Assembly: GCA_017542475.1 (NCBI GenBank)
Contig: JAFXXD010000031.1
Location: 18,106 to 82,105, forward strand
DNA: 64,000 bases
Direction of reading: 5' to 3'
From: Ruminococcus sp.
Lineage (GTDB): Bacteria > Bacillota > Clostridia > Oscillospirales > Ruminococcaceae
The translations under genes were made by a program, and so were the position numbers. The notes under the pieces are model-generated. The model saw only the letters and a program-made list of their open reading frames with translations, was not told the origin of the DNA and ran no database searches. Positions 58,694 through 64,000 of the stretch are shown here, piece by piece; positions within the stretch are counted from its first letter, which is position 1, and every line of letters starts with the position of its first letter.

Positions 58694-58763
58694 ATTATAT
58701 ACCCGAAACAGGGCAAAGTCCAATACCAAAGCACTATCCGCGGCTATAGCCTCAGCCTATACC
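58694..58763 (-). promoter_or_regulatory. Promoter and LysR-type operator of the oxidoreductase operon
   Basis: Minus strand: 22-bp dyad GGTATAGGCTGAGGCTATAGCC-like (58742-58763, containing the LysR stop codon), 18 bp, TTGGAC (58718-58723), 18 bp, TATAAT (58694-58699). Spacings equal those at 55673-55742. Confidence 0.72.
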
Positions 58764-59663
58764 GAGATACTTCCTTATCTCGCGGATATATATGTCAGCC
58801 ATTTCGCTGAGAATGACATTTTTCAGCGTGATATAGCCTATCTCCATTATCTCGTCGGTGTCGTCCTCGAAGGGCACGGCGATGTAGTCCGAGCCGTTGA
58901 GCTCCTCGCAGATTATGCCCGAGCACAGCGTGTAGCCGTTCAGACCTATCATCAGGTTCAGCATAGTGGCGCGGTCGTTTGCCTTTATCGTGCGCTGGTA
59001 GTCCGCGGTGCTGAGCAGCTCCTCGGCGAGGTAGAAGGTGCTGTTGTCGCCCTGCTCGAACGAGAGGCAGGGGTAGTCCGCGAGCTGGGCGAACGTTATC
59101 TTCTTCTCCTTCGCGAGCGGGTGACCCTTCCACAGATACACGTATGGTCTGCACTTGGTAAGCGTGTGGAATTCGAGCCCGTTCGAGTGCAGCAGCTTCG
59201 TTATCGACTTGCGGTTGAAGTCGTTGAGGTAGATGATCCCTATCTCGCTGCGGAGCGTGGCAACGTCGCTGATGACCTCGCCTGTCTTGGTCTCGCGGAC
59301 TGCGAACTCATACTCGGCGGTGTCGAACTCCTTGACCATTTCCACGAAAGCCTTGACCGCAAAGGAGTAGTGCTGGGTGGACACGCCGAACTTCTTCTTG
59401 ACATTGCCCTTGCCGATGTACTTCTCGGCGAGCACGTCGAACTGTCCGACCACCTGACGCGCATATTGCAGGAACTCCGCGCCGTCGTTGGTGAGGGTGA
59501 CGCCGCGTCCGCTGCGGTTGAATATCTTTATGCCTATCTCGCGTTCGAGCTCCTGCACCGACGACGACAGCGACGGCTGTGATACGTAGAGCTGCTCCGC
59601 GGCTTTGTTCATCGAGTTCGTCTCCGAGATAGCGAGTATGTATTTGAGCTGCTGTAGGGTCAT
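58752..59663 (-). CDS. LysR-family transcriptional regulator
   Basis: A 303-residue regulator with an N-terminal winged helix (LQQLKYILAISETNSMNKAAEQLYVSQPSLSSSVQELER) and a periplasmic-binding-like effector domain. It is on the same strand as, and just upstream of, the oxidoreductase operon; the two operators with equal geometry make it their likely regulator. The effector is unknown; a 2-oxoacid, aryl acid or acyl-CoA is possible. No clear promoter is seen upstream because a repeat array fills that gap. Confidence 0.9.
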   Translation of the reverse strand: MTLQQLKYILAISETNSMNKAAEQLYVSQPSLSSSVQELEREIGIKIFNRSGRGVTLTNDGAEFLQYARQVVGQFDVLAEKYIGKGNVKKKFGVSTQHYSFAVKAFVEMVKEFDTAEYEFAVRETKTGEVISDVATLRSEIGIIYLNDFNRKSITKLLHSNGLEFHTLTKCRPYVYLWKGHPLAKEKKITFAQLADYPCLSFEQGDNSTFYLAEELLSTADYQRTIKANDRATMLNLMIGLNGYTLCSGIICEELNGSDYIAVPFEDDTDEIMEIGYITLKNVILSEMADIYIREIRKYLGIG

Positions 59664-59878: not shown

Positions 59879-60790
59879 TCAATCAAAAAGACCCGTACTG
59901 AAATAGCGGTCGCCGCGGTCGGGGAAGACCGTCACGATGTTGCCCTTTGCGCCGCTGTCTATGAGCTTCAGTACCGCCGCCATTGCCGCTCCCGAGGAAG
60001 AGCCCGCGATGATCCCCTCTGTCCTTGCGAGCAGACGCGCCGTGCTGAATGCCTCGTCGTCGTTCATCTTGATAACGCCGTCCACGAGGGACATATCCAT
60101 TGTCTCGGCGATGAAATCGTTGCCTATGCCCTCGATGTTGTAGTCGGCGTGCTCACCGCCGCCCATAGTCGAGCCGAGCGGGTCTGCGAGTATCCCCTTC
60201 GCTGTGGGTACGCGCTCCTTGATGTAGCGGAGTATGCCCGTGTAGGTGCCGCCGCTTCCCGCGCCTGCCACGACGTAGTCTATCTTGCCGTCGAGAGCCT
60301 CGTATATCTCGCGTCCCGTGGTCTCGTAGTGGGCGAGCGGGTTGCTCTGATTCTTGAACTGCTCCAGCGATATGGAGTTCGGTATCTGCGCCTTTATCTC
60401 CTCTGCCTTCGCGACTGCTCCGAGCATTCCCTGCTCGCGGGGAGTGTTCACCACCTCCGCACCGAGAGCACGCAGAAGCGACTGCTTCTCAGCCGAGAAC
60501 TTGGTCGGCACCACGAAGATGATACGGTAGCCGCGGTTCAGAGCCGCAAACGCTATGCCAAGTCCCGTATTGCCCGCGGTAGCCTCTACGATAGTGCCGC
60601 CCGCTCTGAGAAGTCCCTTCTGCTCGGCGTCGTTTATCATATACAGTCCCGTGCGGTCCTTTACGCTTCCCGAGGGGTTCCAGAGCTCCAGCTTCGCGAA
60701 CACGTTCACGCCCTCAGCCTGCACGATATTTCCGAGCCTCACCAGCGGCGTATTGCCGATGAGCGCCTGCATTGAATCATAGTAGTTCAT
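59879..60790 (-). CDS. cysK: Cysteine synthase / cystathionine beta-synthase family protein
   Basis: A 303-residue fold-type II PLP enzyme. The PLP lysine is in NPSGSVKDRTGLY (about residues 38-50), TAGNTGLGIAFAAL binds substrate, and GSGGTYTGILRY binds phosphate. IEGIGNDFIAETMD and EGIIAGSSSGAA are also typical of the OAS-dependent beta-synthase MccA, so beta-synthase activity is possible. The ATG at 60790 overlaps the stop of the transsulfuration gene, and GGAGG lies 7 bp upstream. The pair may convert homocysteine to cysteine. Confidence 0.88.
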   Translation of the reverse strand: MNYYDSMQALIGNTPLVRLGNIVQAEGVNVFAKLELWNPSGSVKDRTGLYMINDAEQKGLLRAGGTIVEATAGNTGLGIAFAALNRGYRIIFVVPTKFSAEKQSLLRALGAEVVNTPREQGMLGAVAKAEEIKAQIPNSISLEQFKNQSNPLAHYETTGREIYEALDGKIDYVVAGAGSGGTYTGILRYIKERVPTAKGILADPLGSTMGGGEHADYNIEGIGNDFIAETMDMSLVDGVIKMNDDEAFSTARLLARTEGIIAGSSSGAAMAAVLKLIDSGAKGNIVTVFPDRGDRYFSTGLFD

Positions 60791-61950
60791 CACTTTACCT
60801 CCGCTTTCTCTATCGCCTGTGCGAGGTCGGCGAGGATGTCGTCAATGCTCTCTATGCCGACCGACAGGCGGATAAGTCCGTCCGTGATACCGACCTTTCT
60901 GCGGATATCAGCGGGTATTGAAGCGTGCGTCATCGTTGCGGGGTGGCATACCAGCGACTCCACGCCGCCGAGGCTCTCCGCCAGCGAGATGAGCTCCAAG
61001 CTCTCGAAGAAGCGGCGGATATCGTAGTTCTCGCGGAGCTCAAACGATATCATCGCTCCGCCGTTCTTAGCCTGTCTGCGGTTGACCTCATAGCCCTGCG
61101 ACGTCGGCAGACCAGGATAGTAGACGTTCTTGACCGCCTTGTGCCCGTCGAGGAAATGAGCCGCCTTTTCAGCGTTCTCGACGTGCCTGTCGAGACGTAC
61201 CGCGAGGGTCTTGATACCTCTTATAAGCAGGAAGGAATCGAAAGGTCCGAGGACGCCGCCCGTGGAGTTCTGAATGAAGGCTATCTGCTCGGCGAGCTCG
61301 GGAGTGCTGACTACTGCCAGTCCCGCGACAACGTCGCTGTGTCCGCCGAGGTACTTGGTCGCGCTGTGGACAACTATGTCCGCGCCGAGGGTGAGCGGCT
61401 TCTGCTAATAGGGGGTCATAAAGGTGTTGTCCACGATGACGAGCAGACCGTGTCTGTGCGAGACCTCCGCGACTGCCGCGATATCGGTCACTGTCATAAG
61501 GGGATTTGCGGGGCTTTCGATGATGACCGCCTTTACGTCGTCGGTTATCTGGCTCTCGTAGACGGAGAGGTCGGTGGTGTCGGCGATGGTGTAGGTGTAG
61601 CCGAAGTGGTCGAAGACCTTGCTCAGCAGGCGGAAGGTACCGCCGTAGACGTTGCTGGAAATGAGCACGCGGTCGCCGCTGTGGAGAAGGCTCAGCACCG
61701 CAGTCAGAGCCGCCATTCCCGAGCCGAATGCAAAGCCCGCATAGCCGCCCTCCAAGTCCCTGATGAGAGCCTCAAGAGCCTCGCGGGTGGGATTGCCTGT
61801 GCGCGAATACTCGTAGCCGCGCATCTTTCCGAGACCGTCCTGCTTGTAGGTGGAGGTCTGATATATCGGGATATTCACCGCGCCCGTGCGCTCGTCAATT
61901 GATATCCCGCCGTGTATAAGTGCTGTTTCTGTGGTTGTATATTTACTCAT
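60790..61950 (-). pseudogene. Transsulfuration enzyme (cystathionine gamma-synthase/lyase type) interrupted by an amber codon
   Basis: A frame of 386 codons with one in-frame TAG at codon 182 (61405-61407). Before it: TETALIHGGISIDERTGAVN, TGNPTREALEALIRDLEG and VIVDNTFMTPY. After it, in the same frame: QKPLTLGADIVVHSATKYLG with the PLP lysine, then GGVESLVCHPATMTHAS. Homologues have Leu or Phe where the stop lies, and TTG to TAG is one change. The truncated product lacks the PLP lysine. An assembly or sequencing error, a real nonsense mutation or suppression are all possible. Confidence 0.82.
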
Positions 61951-61969: not shown

Positions 61970-62205
61970 CTGTAGGGGGCGATGCCTACATCGCCCCGTC
62001 AAACGTATTGTATATTCACGGGCTGATGTTAAGCTGCGTACCAAATCTATGATTTGGATTTCGCAGCTATATGCAGCTCCGCTGCTGGGCATCAGCCCCT
62101 ACACAAGTATGTTCATTCGACGTGATGTAGGGGACGCCGCCCTCGGCGTCCCGTAAATATGTCGGTTGCCAACGGGCGGGCGAGGGCGCCCGCCCCTACA
62201 TCTTA
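61970..62205. repeat. TGTAGGG-type hairpin array with an insertion inside one loop
   Basis: TGTAGGGGGCGATG-CCTA-CATCGCCCC is followed by GGGCTGATG (62020-62028) and CATCAGCCC (62090-62098), which here enclose 61 nt and not the usual 4. The insert is itself palindromic (GCTGCGTACCAAATC ... GATTTGGATTTCGCAGC). Further units with GGGGACGCC/GGCGTCCC and GGGCGGGCGAGGGCGCCCGC follow. Confidence 0.8.
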
Positions 62206-62212
62206 GCTCTGA

Positions 62213-63109
62213 CTACTCATAGTCATACCCCGCGGTGTAGGTAGCGGAAATGAGGCTGACGTTTTCAAATGCCCTGAGGTCGTCGGTGCGTCCGTCAAAG
62301 TATTCCCTCTGCACCTTCTCGGGCGGCATATACGTATCTATCTGAAAGCCCAGCGAGTACAGCGCACGCGAGACCTCGTTGTAGTCGAAGCCGCCGCGCA
62401 TCACCTCTCCGAGCGATTCCGTTATCTCCTCGAGCTTCCCGACCCTGCGCGGGAACTCGCCCGTCTTTATCGGGTAGTCGAACACGACCCCGCTCCCGAG
62501 CGACGAGAGCTCCGACATCTGCCTCAGCGTGTCCGAGAAGACGTCGAGCGTCAGGTAGTAGGACACGCCCAGTATGCTGAAGAAGGTCTTTTTCTGCGGG
62601 TCAAAGCCTGCCTCTATGAGCTTGCCGCACATTCGCTCCTTCTCGAAATCCACGGGTACGAAGTGCACGTTTGCGGGTATGTTCCATTCGAGCTCGCGTA
62701 TCCGTTCGAGCTTGTAGCGCTGGGTGTCGGGGTGGTCTATCTCGAATATCTCGATGTTCTCGTTCGTGTTGCGGAAGGAGAACGTGTCCGAGCCCGCGCC
62801 GCATATCACGTACTGTATCTTCCCGTTTTCGGCGGCGAAGTCCGCGAGCCTCACCTCGTTGAAGTGTATCCTCGACAGCGGTATCGGAGCGAAATATTCC
62901 CCGATTATCTGCTCGGCGTCCTCGCGGGACAGCCTCTGCGAGCCGTCAAGCCCGCTCCTTATCATATCATAAAGCTCGTCGTACTCTTCCTTGCCCATAA
63001 AGTCGTAGGCGAGGTAGTCGTCGAATATCTTCTGCCTCGACCTGTTCGAGTGCCACGCTCTCACGAACGCGCACAGCTTGGCAGTTACGCTTTCTCTCTC
63101 GTTGACCAT
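62213..63109 (-). CDS. Class I SAM-dependent methyltransferase (LCMT-like)
   Basis: A 298-residue methyltransferase of the leucine carboxyl methyltransferase-like family (also called TIGR00027 group in bacteria). The AdoMet motif is YVICGAGSDTFSFRN (about residues 97-111), motif II is IFEIDHPDTQRYKLERIREL, and FFSILGVSYYLTLDVFSDTL is typical. Substrates in bacteria are unknown, often polyketides or small acids. The ATG at 63109 has GGAGG 5 bp upstream. Upstream lie a terminator, a 30-codon leader and a consensus promoter, so its expression is probably attenuated. Confidence 0.87.
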   Translation of the reverse strand: MVNERESVTAKLCAFVRAWHSNRSRQKIFDDYLAYDFMGKEEYDELYDMIRSGLDGSQRLSREDAEQIIGEYFAPIPLSRIHFNEVRLADFAAENGKIQYVICGAGSDTFSFRNTNENIEIFEIDHPDTQRYKLERIRELEWNIPANVHFVPVDFEKERMCGKLIEAGFDPQKKTFFSILGVSYYLTLDVFSDTLRQMSELSSLGSGVVFDYPIKTGEFPRRVGKLEEITESLGEVMRGGFDYNEVSRALYSLGFQIDTYMPPEKVQREYFDGRTDDLRAFENVSLISATYTAGYDYE

Positions 63110-63119
63110 AAGCTCCTCC

Positions 63120-63158
63120 AAAAATAAAAATGCGCGGAACGCCGACGCACTCCACGCA
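63120..63158 (-). terminator. Leader terminator before the methyltransferase gene
   Basis: Minus-strand RNA: UGCGUGGAG, a 10-nt loop, UUCCGCGCA and UUUUUAUUUUU. It ends 10 bp before the methyltransferase start and 20 bp after the leader peptide stop. Transcripts must pass it to express the enzyme. Confidence 0.82.
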
Positions 63159-63178
63159 TAAAAGTACACTCACTGATG

Positions 63179-63271
63179 TTAAGAGAAGGCGCAACATCGC
63201 TGAGCATAAGCACGCAGAATACGCATAGCTTTACTGTCACACATACAATACCAGCACATATTCGTTCTCAT
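63179..63271 (-). CDS. Cys/Met-rich 30-residue leader peptide
   Basis: The frame codes for MRTNMCWYCMCDSKAMRILR then AYAQRCCAFS. It has five Cys and four Met in 30 codons, plus a Trp and two Tyr. GGGAG lies 8 bp upstream of the ATG, and the frame begins about 50 bp after a perfect promoter. The order promoter, Cys-rich peptide, terminator, enzyme resembles amino-acid attenuation. A second possibility is a small peptide product modified by the methyltransferase. It is too short for usual gene finding. Confidence 0.68.
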   Translation of the reverse strand: MRTNMCWYCMCDSKAMRILRAYAQRCCAFS

Positions 63272-63322
63272 GTTCAGCACTCCCTTCGGTTAATTTACTG
63301 TATTCCTATCGGAACTATATGA

Positions 63323-63351
63323 ATTATAGCATATGACCGACATATTGTCAA
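63323..63351 (-). promoter_or_regulatory. Consensus sigma-A promoter of the leader-methyltransferase unit
   Basis: Minus strand: TTGACA (63346-63351), 17 bp, TATAAT (63323-63328). Both hexamers are exact. Confidence 0.93.
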
Positions 63352-63439
63352 TAGCCTGCGGCTATATTCGGCAATAGTTATAGAAACACCCTATAATCTG
63401 CATAGTCTTTGTGGATTTTGCAGTCCTGCAAGTCAAGAT

Positions 63440-63700
63440 ATTATGTCCACACAGATGATATCTTGATATCTTGATATCTTGGCGCGGTGTCCACGCTGCC
63501 GATTCACGCAGTCGCTCGGCGCGGTGTCCGCGCTGCCAATTCACGCAGTCGCTCGTAAACTCGCTTACCTGTACGGACGGCGGGTCTTTTCCCGCGAGCC
63601 TTACCAATCAATAATATGTTGATATCTTGATATCTTGAACGCAGTAAAGTGATAAAGTAAAATTGAATGTGGGGGACGGAATTAATGAATAGTGCATAAT
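63440..63700. repeat. Mosaic repeat region homologous to 17533-17700
   Basis: GATATCTT octads (63460-63480) are followed by two 37-bp tandem units (63481-63517 and 63518-63554, differing at two bases), the inverse block of 14438-14520 (63540-63608), then TTACCAATCAATAATA, further octads, AGTAAAGTGATAAAGTAAAA and GGACGGAATTAATGAATA as at 17533-17650. Confidence 0.7.
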
Positions 63701-63705
63701 TGTGG

Positions 63706-64000
63706 TGTAGGGGCGCATTCCGTGCGCCCGCCAATGACCGCCAGACTAACGGCTTCATTCCGTAGGGGCGGCGTCCCGCCGCCCGCAATTATACCGCAAA
63801 ACCCACGGCGACGACCTGTAGGGACGACCATCGGTCGTCCGCAAATAATCCGTACCAATTACCGTTAACGTTAATACGGACGCGCAATGCGCGTCCCTAC
63901 ATCGGTCGATTGAATGTATTCGTGTAGGGGCGGCGCCCTCGCCCGCCCGCAATTATACCGCAAAACCCACGGCGACGACCTGTAGGGACGACCATCGGTC
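63706..64000. repeat. TGTAGGG-type hairpin array running to the window end
   Basis: Units TGTAGGGGCGCATTCCGTGC then GCCC, GTAGGGGCGGCGTCCCGCCG then CCC, TGTAGGGACGACCATCGGTC then GTCC, GGACGCGCAATGCGCGTCCC with TACA and GTAGGGGCGGCGCCCTCGCC. The order matches 17701-17900 in part. The phrase ATTATACCGCAAAACCCACG occurs twice (63788 and 63953), so part of the array is duplicated. No gene is seen. Confidence 0.78.

Follow-up and report, generated by a model that had tools for sequence, protein, structure and literature searches.

Comparative sequence analysis points to a cysteine-sensing, ribosome-mediated transcription attenuator before a putative methionine-to-cysteine operon in Ruminococcus

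The locus lies in a 64,000-nucleotide stretch of a Ruminococcus sp. genome (assembly GCA_017542475.1, contig JAFXXD010000031.1, positions 18,106 to 82,105), which is referred to as the window throughout. A promoter, a short cysteine-rich frame, a terminator hairpin and a methyltransferase gene with its downstream neighbours follow each other on the minus strand, and the features are given here from promoter to operon end.

63362..63383, minus strand: interrupted palindrome CTATA-N12-TATAG, likely the binding site of a LysR-type regulator (22/22 match to the genus pattern)
63323..63351, minus strand: promoter TTGACA-17-TATAAT, 12/12 consensus (-35 at 63351-63346, -10 at 63328-63323)
63303..63314, minus strand: palindrome TTCC-GATA-GGAA at the predicted transcription start (TTCC-N4-GGAATA in 41/48 aligned loci, strict pattern)
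63284-63280, minus strand: ribosome-binding site GGGAG of the leader, read from the sequence
63267..63278, minus strand: segment 1 (GCUGAACAUGAG), around the start codon; proposed partner of CUUAUGCUCAGC (63210-63199) in ribosome-free RNA (93.8% of cells paired)
63179..63271, minus strand: leader peptide frame MRTNMCWYCMCDSKAMRILRAYAQRCCAFS, 30 codons and a stop, ATG start (Cys-rich frame in 48/48 aligned loci)
63239..63256, minus strand: proposed sensing codons UGC UGG UAU UGU AUG UGU, codons 6-11 (Cys codon at -45 in 48/48)
63212..63224, minus strand: predicted antiterminator 5' strand, part 1 (GCGUAUUCUGCGU), pairing with the terminator 5' arm
63202..63208, minus strand: predicted antiterminator 5' strand, part 2 (UAUGCUC), also in segment 2, pairing with GAGUGUA
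63193..63198, minus strand: GAUGUU, predicted 5' strand of the apical helix, in the R-C-C codons (helix of at least 5 pairs in 37/48 segment folds)
63175..63180, minus strand: AACAUC, predicted 3' partner in the apical helix, reaching into the leader stop codon (segment folds)
63165..63171, minus strand: GAGUGUA, predicted antiterminator 3' strand, part 2 (covariation, segment folds)
63145..63157, minus strand: GCGUGGAGUGCGU, terminator 5' arm and predicted antiterminator 3' strand, part 1 (covariation)
63120..63159, minus strand: intrinsic terminator of 13 bp (hairpin 63159-63130) with U-tract U5AU5 (10/13 pairs with two-sided changes among the 48 loci)
63119-63115, minus strand: ribosome-binding site GGAGG of the methyltransferase, preceding its ATG at 63109
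62213..63109, minus strand: SAM-dependent methyltransferase, first gene of the operon (PF04072 LCM and TIGR00027 profile matches, Pfam/NCBIfam)
60790..61950, minus strand: mccB-like cystathionine gamma-lyase / homocysteine desulfhydrase gene (Pfam Cys_Met_Meta_PP on both of its pieces)
59879..60793, minus strand: mccA-like / cysK-family PLP enzyme (PALP; cysK-type models just under their cut-offs)
58752..59663, minus strand: LysR-type regulator at the operon end (profile match)

The methyltransferase matches a single PDB sequence at E≤0.01, 2ckd (E 1.5e-06), and belongs to the LCM family, which we take to be another family than UbiG. For the first piece of the mccB-like gene the best NCBIfam match is the model of a bifunctional gamma-lyase/desulfhydrase, below the cut-off of that model. 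The two pieces are separated by an in-frame TAG at 61405-61407 (minus strand; MTPY*QKPL) with the frame otherwise open on both sides, and this codon may be either a real nonsense mutation or an assembly error. Among the 48 aligned loci of the genus, matches to mccB and mccA follow the methyltransferase in the same direction in 47, the exception being G004, where the contig ends first. A LysR gene stands last in the operon in the majority of genomes; no match to it was obtained in G106, G074, G108, G129, G133, G001 and G032. Judged from its gene content, the operon looks built to make cysteine from methionine by reverse transsulfuration. In the intergenic stretches 62010-62200 and 63690-64000, inspection by eye shows recurring short blocks rich in GC (GTAGGGGCGG..., GTAGGGACGACC...) that resemble a dispersed repeat; the former lies within the 262-nt gap between the methyltransferase and mccB, a gap of about 11 nt in several relatives.

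A protein search identified the methyltransferase in 51 of 125 genomes of the genus, and in 33 of the 68 genomes of good quality. Three of the 51 loci were left out of the alignment: G076 because it has only 147 nt of upstream sequence, G112 because its contig is cut, and G080 because at 53% identity its leader could not be aligned. In all of the remaining 48 the leader and the terminator are kept before the methyltransferase. A reading made from the sequence of the window had described a perfect promoter, a 30-codon frame with GGGAG and the codon series UGC UGG UAU UGU AUG UGU, a hairpin with U5AU5, a methyltransferase with its own GGAGG, and adjoining cysteine and transsulfuration genes; each of these was recovered on the minus strand at its described position, and the conservation of leader and terminator in the aligned relatives sets them apart from coincidence.

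The leader is a frame that annotation would easily skip. Over the 48 loci cysteine makes up 20.4% of its residues versus 1.0% in the methyltransferases, and ahead of the antiterminator strand every leader has 3-6 Cys codons, arranged for example as CCCMC, CCMQCCC or CCCCC. With CWYCMC (MCWYCMC with the preceding residue) the leader of the window is slightly atypical, as most of the others have CCCMC, CCMQCCC or similar. That reading had named stop codons or frameshifts in relatives retaining promoter and gene as the observation that would speak against a functional leader; none of the 48 frames is interrupted, and even in G075, where the 3' half has diverged, frame and Cys cluster are kept. 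Methionine codons are enriched as well (10.9%, start excluded), and because of this a methionine signal is also possible. Near the C-terminus most of the 48 leaders share a block Y-A-Q-R-C-C, which is encoded by near-constant codons (TAT in 36, GCT in 45, CAG in 44, CGA in 46, TGT in 46 and TGC in 41 of the 48), whereas the methyltransferase genes of these genomes use CGA for 7% of Arg codons, GCT for 23% of Ala codons and TGT for 24% of Cys codons. The choice of codons in the 3' half is thus largely fixed, which argues for selection on the RNA as well as on the peptide.

The terminator hairpin taken alone proves nothing, because shuffles of the region give 1.1 terminator-like sites where the region itself has one; its evolutionary behaviour is more informative. 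It is present in 48/48 aligned loci, 94.0% of cells are paired, and 10 of its 13 pairs show changes on both sides; none of 500 shuffles reached four of the five measures and one reached the fifth, with the reservation, which applies equally to the antiterminator, that these shuffles leave relatedness in and that the 48 genomes are related and not independent.

The sequence-only reading had stated that no convincing antiterminator could be drawn, and had left the sensing step open. In contrast to that statement, the window is predicted to form an antiterminator in which helices of 13, 8 and 7 bp stack on each other, and its main helices covary in relatives. It would fill the open step by pairing leader strands within 63224-63202 with the terminator 5' arm and with GAGUGUA; in the alignment this second pairing appears as UGCUC:GAGUR, with GAGUR upstream of the terminator 5' arm. 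Over the 48 loci 87.1% of the antiterminator cells are paired and 8 of 18 pairs have changed on both sides, with 22 such cells; the values were reached by 0/500 shuffles for four measures and by 6/500 for the number of pair types, and sliding the partner lowers pairing to 25-65%. A compensatory example is G025, where UUC has become CUU and GAA on the opposite strand has become AAG. The two strands are also matched within each genome, as the own duplexes have a mean of -15.96 kcal/mol versus -14.29 (sd 0.30) for swaps between genomes (0 of 10,000 permutations). The strand-swap test held with representatives chosen at five identity thresholds, from 43 down to 15 genomes, with 0 or 1 of 20,000 permutations each (0/20,000 for 15 genomes, 1/20,000 for 26 genomes). 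The weakest duplexes are those of G077 (-7.5), G024 (-10.6) and G075 (-11.2 kcal/mol). In segment folds the first helix had at least 8 pairs in 47/48 loci, the second at least 4 pairs in 45/48 and the apical helix at least 5 pairs in 37/48, all three being found together in 34/48. The pairing of segment 1 with segment 2 stays a proposal because it is almost invariant and shows no clear covariation: its pairing percentage was reached by 9/500 shuffles and its other measures by 86-124/500.

An alignment-free count placed a Cys codon exactly 45 nt before an anchor codon in 48/48 leaders, the anchor being CAG in 44 of them, and a second Cys codon at 39 nt in 23/48. The other distances vary over the same loci, from 21-39 nt between the start and the -45 Cys codon to 9-33 nt between anchor and stop and 11-51 nt between stop and terminator. 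As judged from this comparison, the distance held constant is that between the cysteine codons and the antiterminator, which is the distance relevant to a stalled ribosome.

When the transcript was folded as far as the terminator 5' arm and a ribosome was represented by 28 masked nt (an assumed footprint), mean antiterminator occupancy was 0.68 with the ribosome on the Cys codons that precede the antiterminator strand, 0.0006 with it on that strand, 0.37 when it stands at the stop codon and 0.44 in its absence; the corresponding values for the window are 0.87, 0.00, 0.00 and 0.58. The mean drops sharply from A-site position -36 to -30, immediately beyond the final Cys position at -39. Stalling at the RCC codons behind the strand gave a mean modelled occupancy of 0.48, below the 0.68 at the first Cys cluster. 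The truncated transcript separates the states on average and not in every genome: occupancy with the ribosome on the Cys codons reaches at least 0.5 in 40/48 and is at most 0.28 in G127, G106, G077, G101, G073 and G063, while at the stop codon it is still at least 0.5 in 19/48, and without ribosome in 23/48, the window among the latter. Occupancy on the Cys codons exceeds that at the stop codon by at least 0.2 in 27/48, and the reverse (by at least 0.05) is seen in 9/48. To free the terminator in these basal states, at the stop codon or without ribosome, the proposed 1:2 stem would be required. Equilibrium folding of the full-length transcript with ribosome masks did not separate the states, the mean for the terminator being 0.94 when free and 0.89 with the ribosome on the Cys codons. 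As the full transcript mostly prefers the terminator at equilibrium, whatever the ribosome position, the switch, if it operates, must be kinetic, and timing is what decides in classical attenuators.

The locus has most of the features of the trp/his type: a Cys-rich leader frame whose translation is predicted, a terminator before the first gene, and an excluding antiterminator positioned for a stalled ribosome. Comparison of relatives established the frame, its cysteine clustering, the terminator, the predicted antiterminator, the fixed spacing and the operon content, and in view of these we consider it very probable that the locus is a cysteine-sensing, ribosome-mediated transcription attenuator before a methionine-to-cysteine operon. 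The alignment of orthologous loci that had been suggested in the sequence-only reading, with its fixed Cys spacing in 48/48, covarying hairpins and species-specific strand matching, supports the ribosome-mediated attenuation put forward there. From these data we infer that tRNA-Cys is the signal, along with the direction of the response, its co-transcriptional timing, the role of the 1:2 stem and the pathway that the operon serves. In such a mechanism RNA polymerase would start at the promoter and a ribosome on the 30-codon leader. When Cys-tRNA(Cys) is scarce, the ribosome would stall on the Cys codons within codons 6-11, break the pairing of segments 1 and 2 and leave the R-I-L-R-A-Y-A strand free to pair with GAGUGUA and the terminator 5' arm once these are made; with the antiterminator formed, the terminator would not arise, and the methyltransferase, mccB and mccA would be transcribed. 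When Cys-tRNA is plentiful, the ribosome would cross the strand to the stop codon, blocking the antiterminator, whose strand would then be sequestered in the 1:2 stem; the terminator could thus form and end transcription.

Three other explanations have to be weighed against this attenuator. The sequence-only reading had offered the alternative that the peptide is itself a product, and a small Cys-rich peptide might indeed be the substrate of the adjacent methyltransferase in a RiPP-like pair, with the hairpin merely lowering downstream expression. Such a role would be in line with the conservation of the Y-A-Q-R-C-C block in most of the 48 leaders, and PF04072 includes carboxyl methyltransferases. 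However, this block is largely fixed by codon and pairs within the antiterminator, the C-terminal residues vary, and one Cys of the RCC pair is missing in several genomes, where the second has been lost by a single base (G102, G108, G133) or replaced by a stop (G075), or the first has been lost (G001, G106). Also, more distant methyltransferase loci carry dissimilar Cys-rich peptides, and the conserved neighbours found in a search limited to the window's own neighbours are mccB, mccA, LysR and Kor genes. A methylated peptide product is thereby disfavoured, and we regard it as quite improbable.

Leader-stalling systems for translation attenuation or the sensing of translation speed exist, and a leader in which Cys codons flank the antiterminator strand and the rare codon CGA occurs could in principle report translation in general, e.g. 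under antibiotics, in place of one amino acid. Against such a system, which is just as improbable as a peptide product, speak the covarying terminator, which in 48/48 loci is kept with its U-tract and has a ribosome-binding site of the gene behind it, and the position of the Cys clusters before a Cys-making operon. Finally, control might reside entirely at the protein level, with the promoter run by LysR and perhaps by a second regulator at TTCC-GATA-GGAA, and with leader and hairpin being incidental. Both DNA sites are conserved and most genomes have a LysR gene at the operon end, but the leader and its alternative hairpins covary, and genomes in which no LysR gene was detected have them too; protein-level control as the sole explanation is the most improbable of these.

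Proteins acting on the DNA are probably involved alongside the attenuator, and we suggest that the operon is controlled at both levels. TTGACA-17-TATAAT is the sole 12/12 promoter site in the 1.1 kb region, which has 5 promoter-like sites versus 1.5 (sd 1.2) in shuffles, and exact hexamers with a spacer of 16-18 nt are found in 43 of the 48 aligned loci. The palindrome CTATAACTATYGCCGAATATAG stands 10 nt before the -35 element in all 45 loci with a matched promoter. As a candidate LysR box it is weaker on average in the 6 genomes without a detected LysR gene than in the 39 others (p = 0.0017, phylogeny ignored, and with G004 and G006 counted as LysR-positive although both loci end before that gene); degraded boxes also occur in several LysR-positive genomes, and the tie between the strength of CTATA-N12-TATAG and the presence of the gene is suggestive only. 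The TTCC-GATA-GGAA palindrome may act as an operator in the DNA or as a hairpin at the 5' end of the RNA; loci in which no LysR gene was detected have it too.

In its exact form GTTCCGATAGGAATAC occurs once only in the own genome (G000). A second operator of this kind was sought there and dismissed, since 19 sites with at most 3 mismatches are fewer than the 42 of a reversed control pattern; the two that differ at 2 positions (L052, L053) fall within or close to frames whose translations, by eye, resemble an ABC transporter and an aminotransferase. The 17-mer TATGCTCAGCGATGTTG with at most 2 mismatches is found in 102 of 125 genomes, where most of the 2-mismatch matches look like chance; its reversed control gives few matches, and among those listed the 0-mismatch matches fall, on comparison by eye, in methyltransferase genomes. 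CymR/Rrf2 was considered as ligand of TTCC-GATA-GGAA; the literature passages yielded no CymR consensus, and no assignment is made. The own genome has, on contig C2 (L123, 1495-1932 and 2104-3030), an Rrf2-family regulator gene facing a cysK-like gene in a CymR/CysK-like arrangement, the identity of the latter being a reading of its translation.

Cys-rich leaders extend beyond the aligned loci. Five more distant orthologues (the L120, L121, L122, G036 and G080 loci) have a Cys-rich frame before the methyltransferase, with terminators identified by eye only. A wider scan covered the best 80 of 284 relatives, of which L164 (147 nt upstream) was dropped, and asked for at least 3 Cys in 6 codons in a frame ending 15-200 nt before the gene. 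Such a frame was found in 64/79 loci, compared with 1/79 in the reverse complement and 28/1580 in mononucleotide shuffles. By hand count, the R. flavefaciens set, made up of L202 and of L136-L175 except L164, was positive in all of its 40 loci; of the other 39, whose methyltransferases are 64-76% identical and many of which are labelled Oscillospiraceae or Lachnospiraceae, though some may be within the genus, 24 were positive and 15 had no leader by this definition. The distant peptides are dissimilar, e.g. LCCCCMLKTRAYS, ICCSACCKCSGG and FVLCPCCCYRNN. A terminator-like hairpin with T-tract follows in all 26 distant leaders examined (the 24 and two near misses; a count made without a control), and an antiterminator better than 95% of shuffles in 7 of the 26, three of these being from near-identical leaders. 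In L121, L122, L118 and L102 the Cys leader and methyltransferase are closely preceded by a second cysK-like gene, as detected by tblastn for L118 and L102 and by reading of the C-terminal end for L121 and L122.

Cysteine attenuators are already in print. Passages of PMC8632094 describe uORFC-8-2 upstream of cysS in Rhodobacterales as a predicted ribosome-mediated attenuator, with a short frame, tandem Cys codons, stems and a terminal U run, and with stalling for Cys-tRNA inferred to lead to readthrough. That element belongs to Alphaproteobacteria, has two conserved Cys codons and precedes a cysteinyl-tRNA synthetase gene, whereas the leader in Ruminococcus, a member of the Clostridia, has 3-6 Cys codons before the strand and the RCC block behind it and precedes a reverse transsulfuration operon. 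Mycobacterial polycysteine short ORFs (Canestrari et al. 2020, as cited in passages of PMC13236596 and PMC9094748) likewise are Cys-rich short frames upstream of operonic genes with cysteine-responsive attenuation; these are, however, leaderless, and the passage in PMC13236596 places the attenuation of cysteine biosynthetic genes in M. smegmatis at the level of translation, in contrast to the Shine-Dalgarno-led frame and the transcription terminator in Ruminococcus. Histidine leader attenuators of Firmicutes (passages of PMC2965389 and PMC9413887) share the codon run for the pathway amino acid together with terminator and antiterminator, and differ in amino acid, genes and lineages; 'regular' leader peptides in Firmicutes are called noticeable in a passage of PMC2965389.

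The gene order methyltransferase-mccB-mccA and the proposed control by cysteine through premature termination recall the clostridial ubiG-mccB-mccA operon, which, according to passages of PMC2940859, converts methionine to cysteine. There a Cys T-box is present in several Clostridium species, where Ruminococcus has a coding leader; in C. acetobutylicum the Cys T-box is described as not fully functional and an S-box-controlled antisense RNA as relied upon, and in C. perfringens VirX and VR-RNA also act on the operon. Searches covering open-licence PMC papers brought up no report of a Cys leader from Clostridia, Ruminococcus included, and we regard the locus as a new, well conserved case of an established type of switch, with good support from comparison. 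If the interpretation is correct, one type of operon has switched its cysteine sensor from a tRNA-binding RNA to ribosome stalling in R. flavefaciens and relatives, and rumen and gut bacteria would have a short regulator, amenable to testing, for their metabolism of sulfur amino acids. It might further be speculated, as a rather unlikely extension, that leaders of this kind arose repeatedly in Oscillospirales/Lachnospiraceae in replacement of the Cys T-box of ubiG-mccB-mccA, and that the switch, with one group of Cys codons ahead of the antiterminator strand and another behind it, may distinguish two degrees of cysteine starvation.

A search of the window against Rfam gave no match at the gathering threshold, and tRNA genes were likewise not found in it. 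Upstream of the gene no T-box was matched; around the leader three chance-like matches appeared at E≤5, none of them a T-box and the best being an L20 leader with 18.6 bits versus a cut-off of 58.7. Amino-acid genes of Firmicutes are mostly governed by T-boxes and riboswitches. The own genome has eleven T-box matches (loci L125-L135), five of them over the cut-off, and thus the organism probably uses T-boxes elsewhere.
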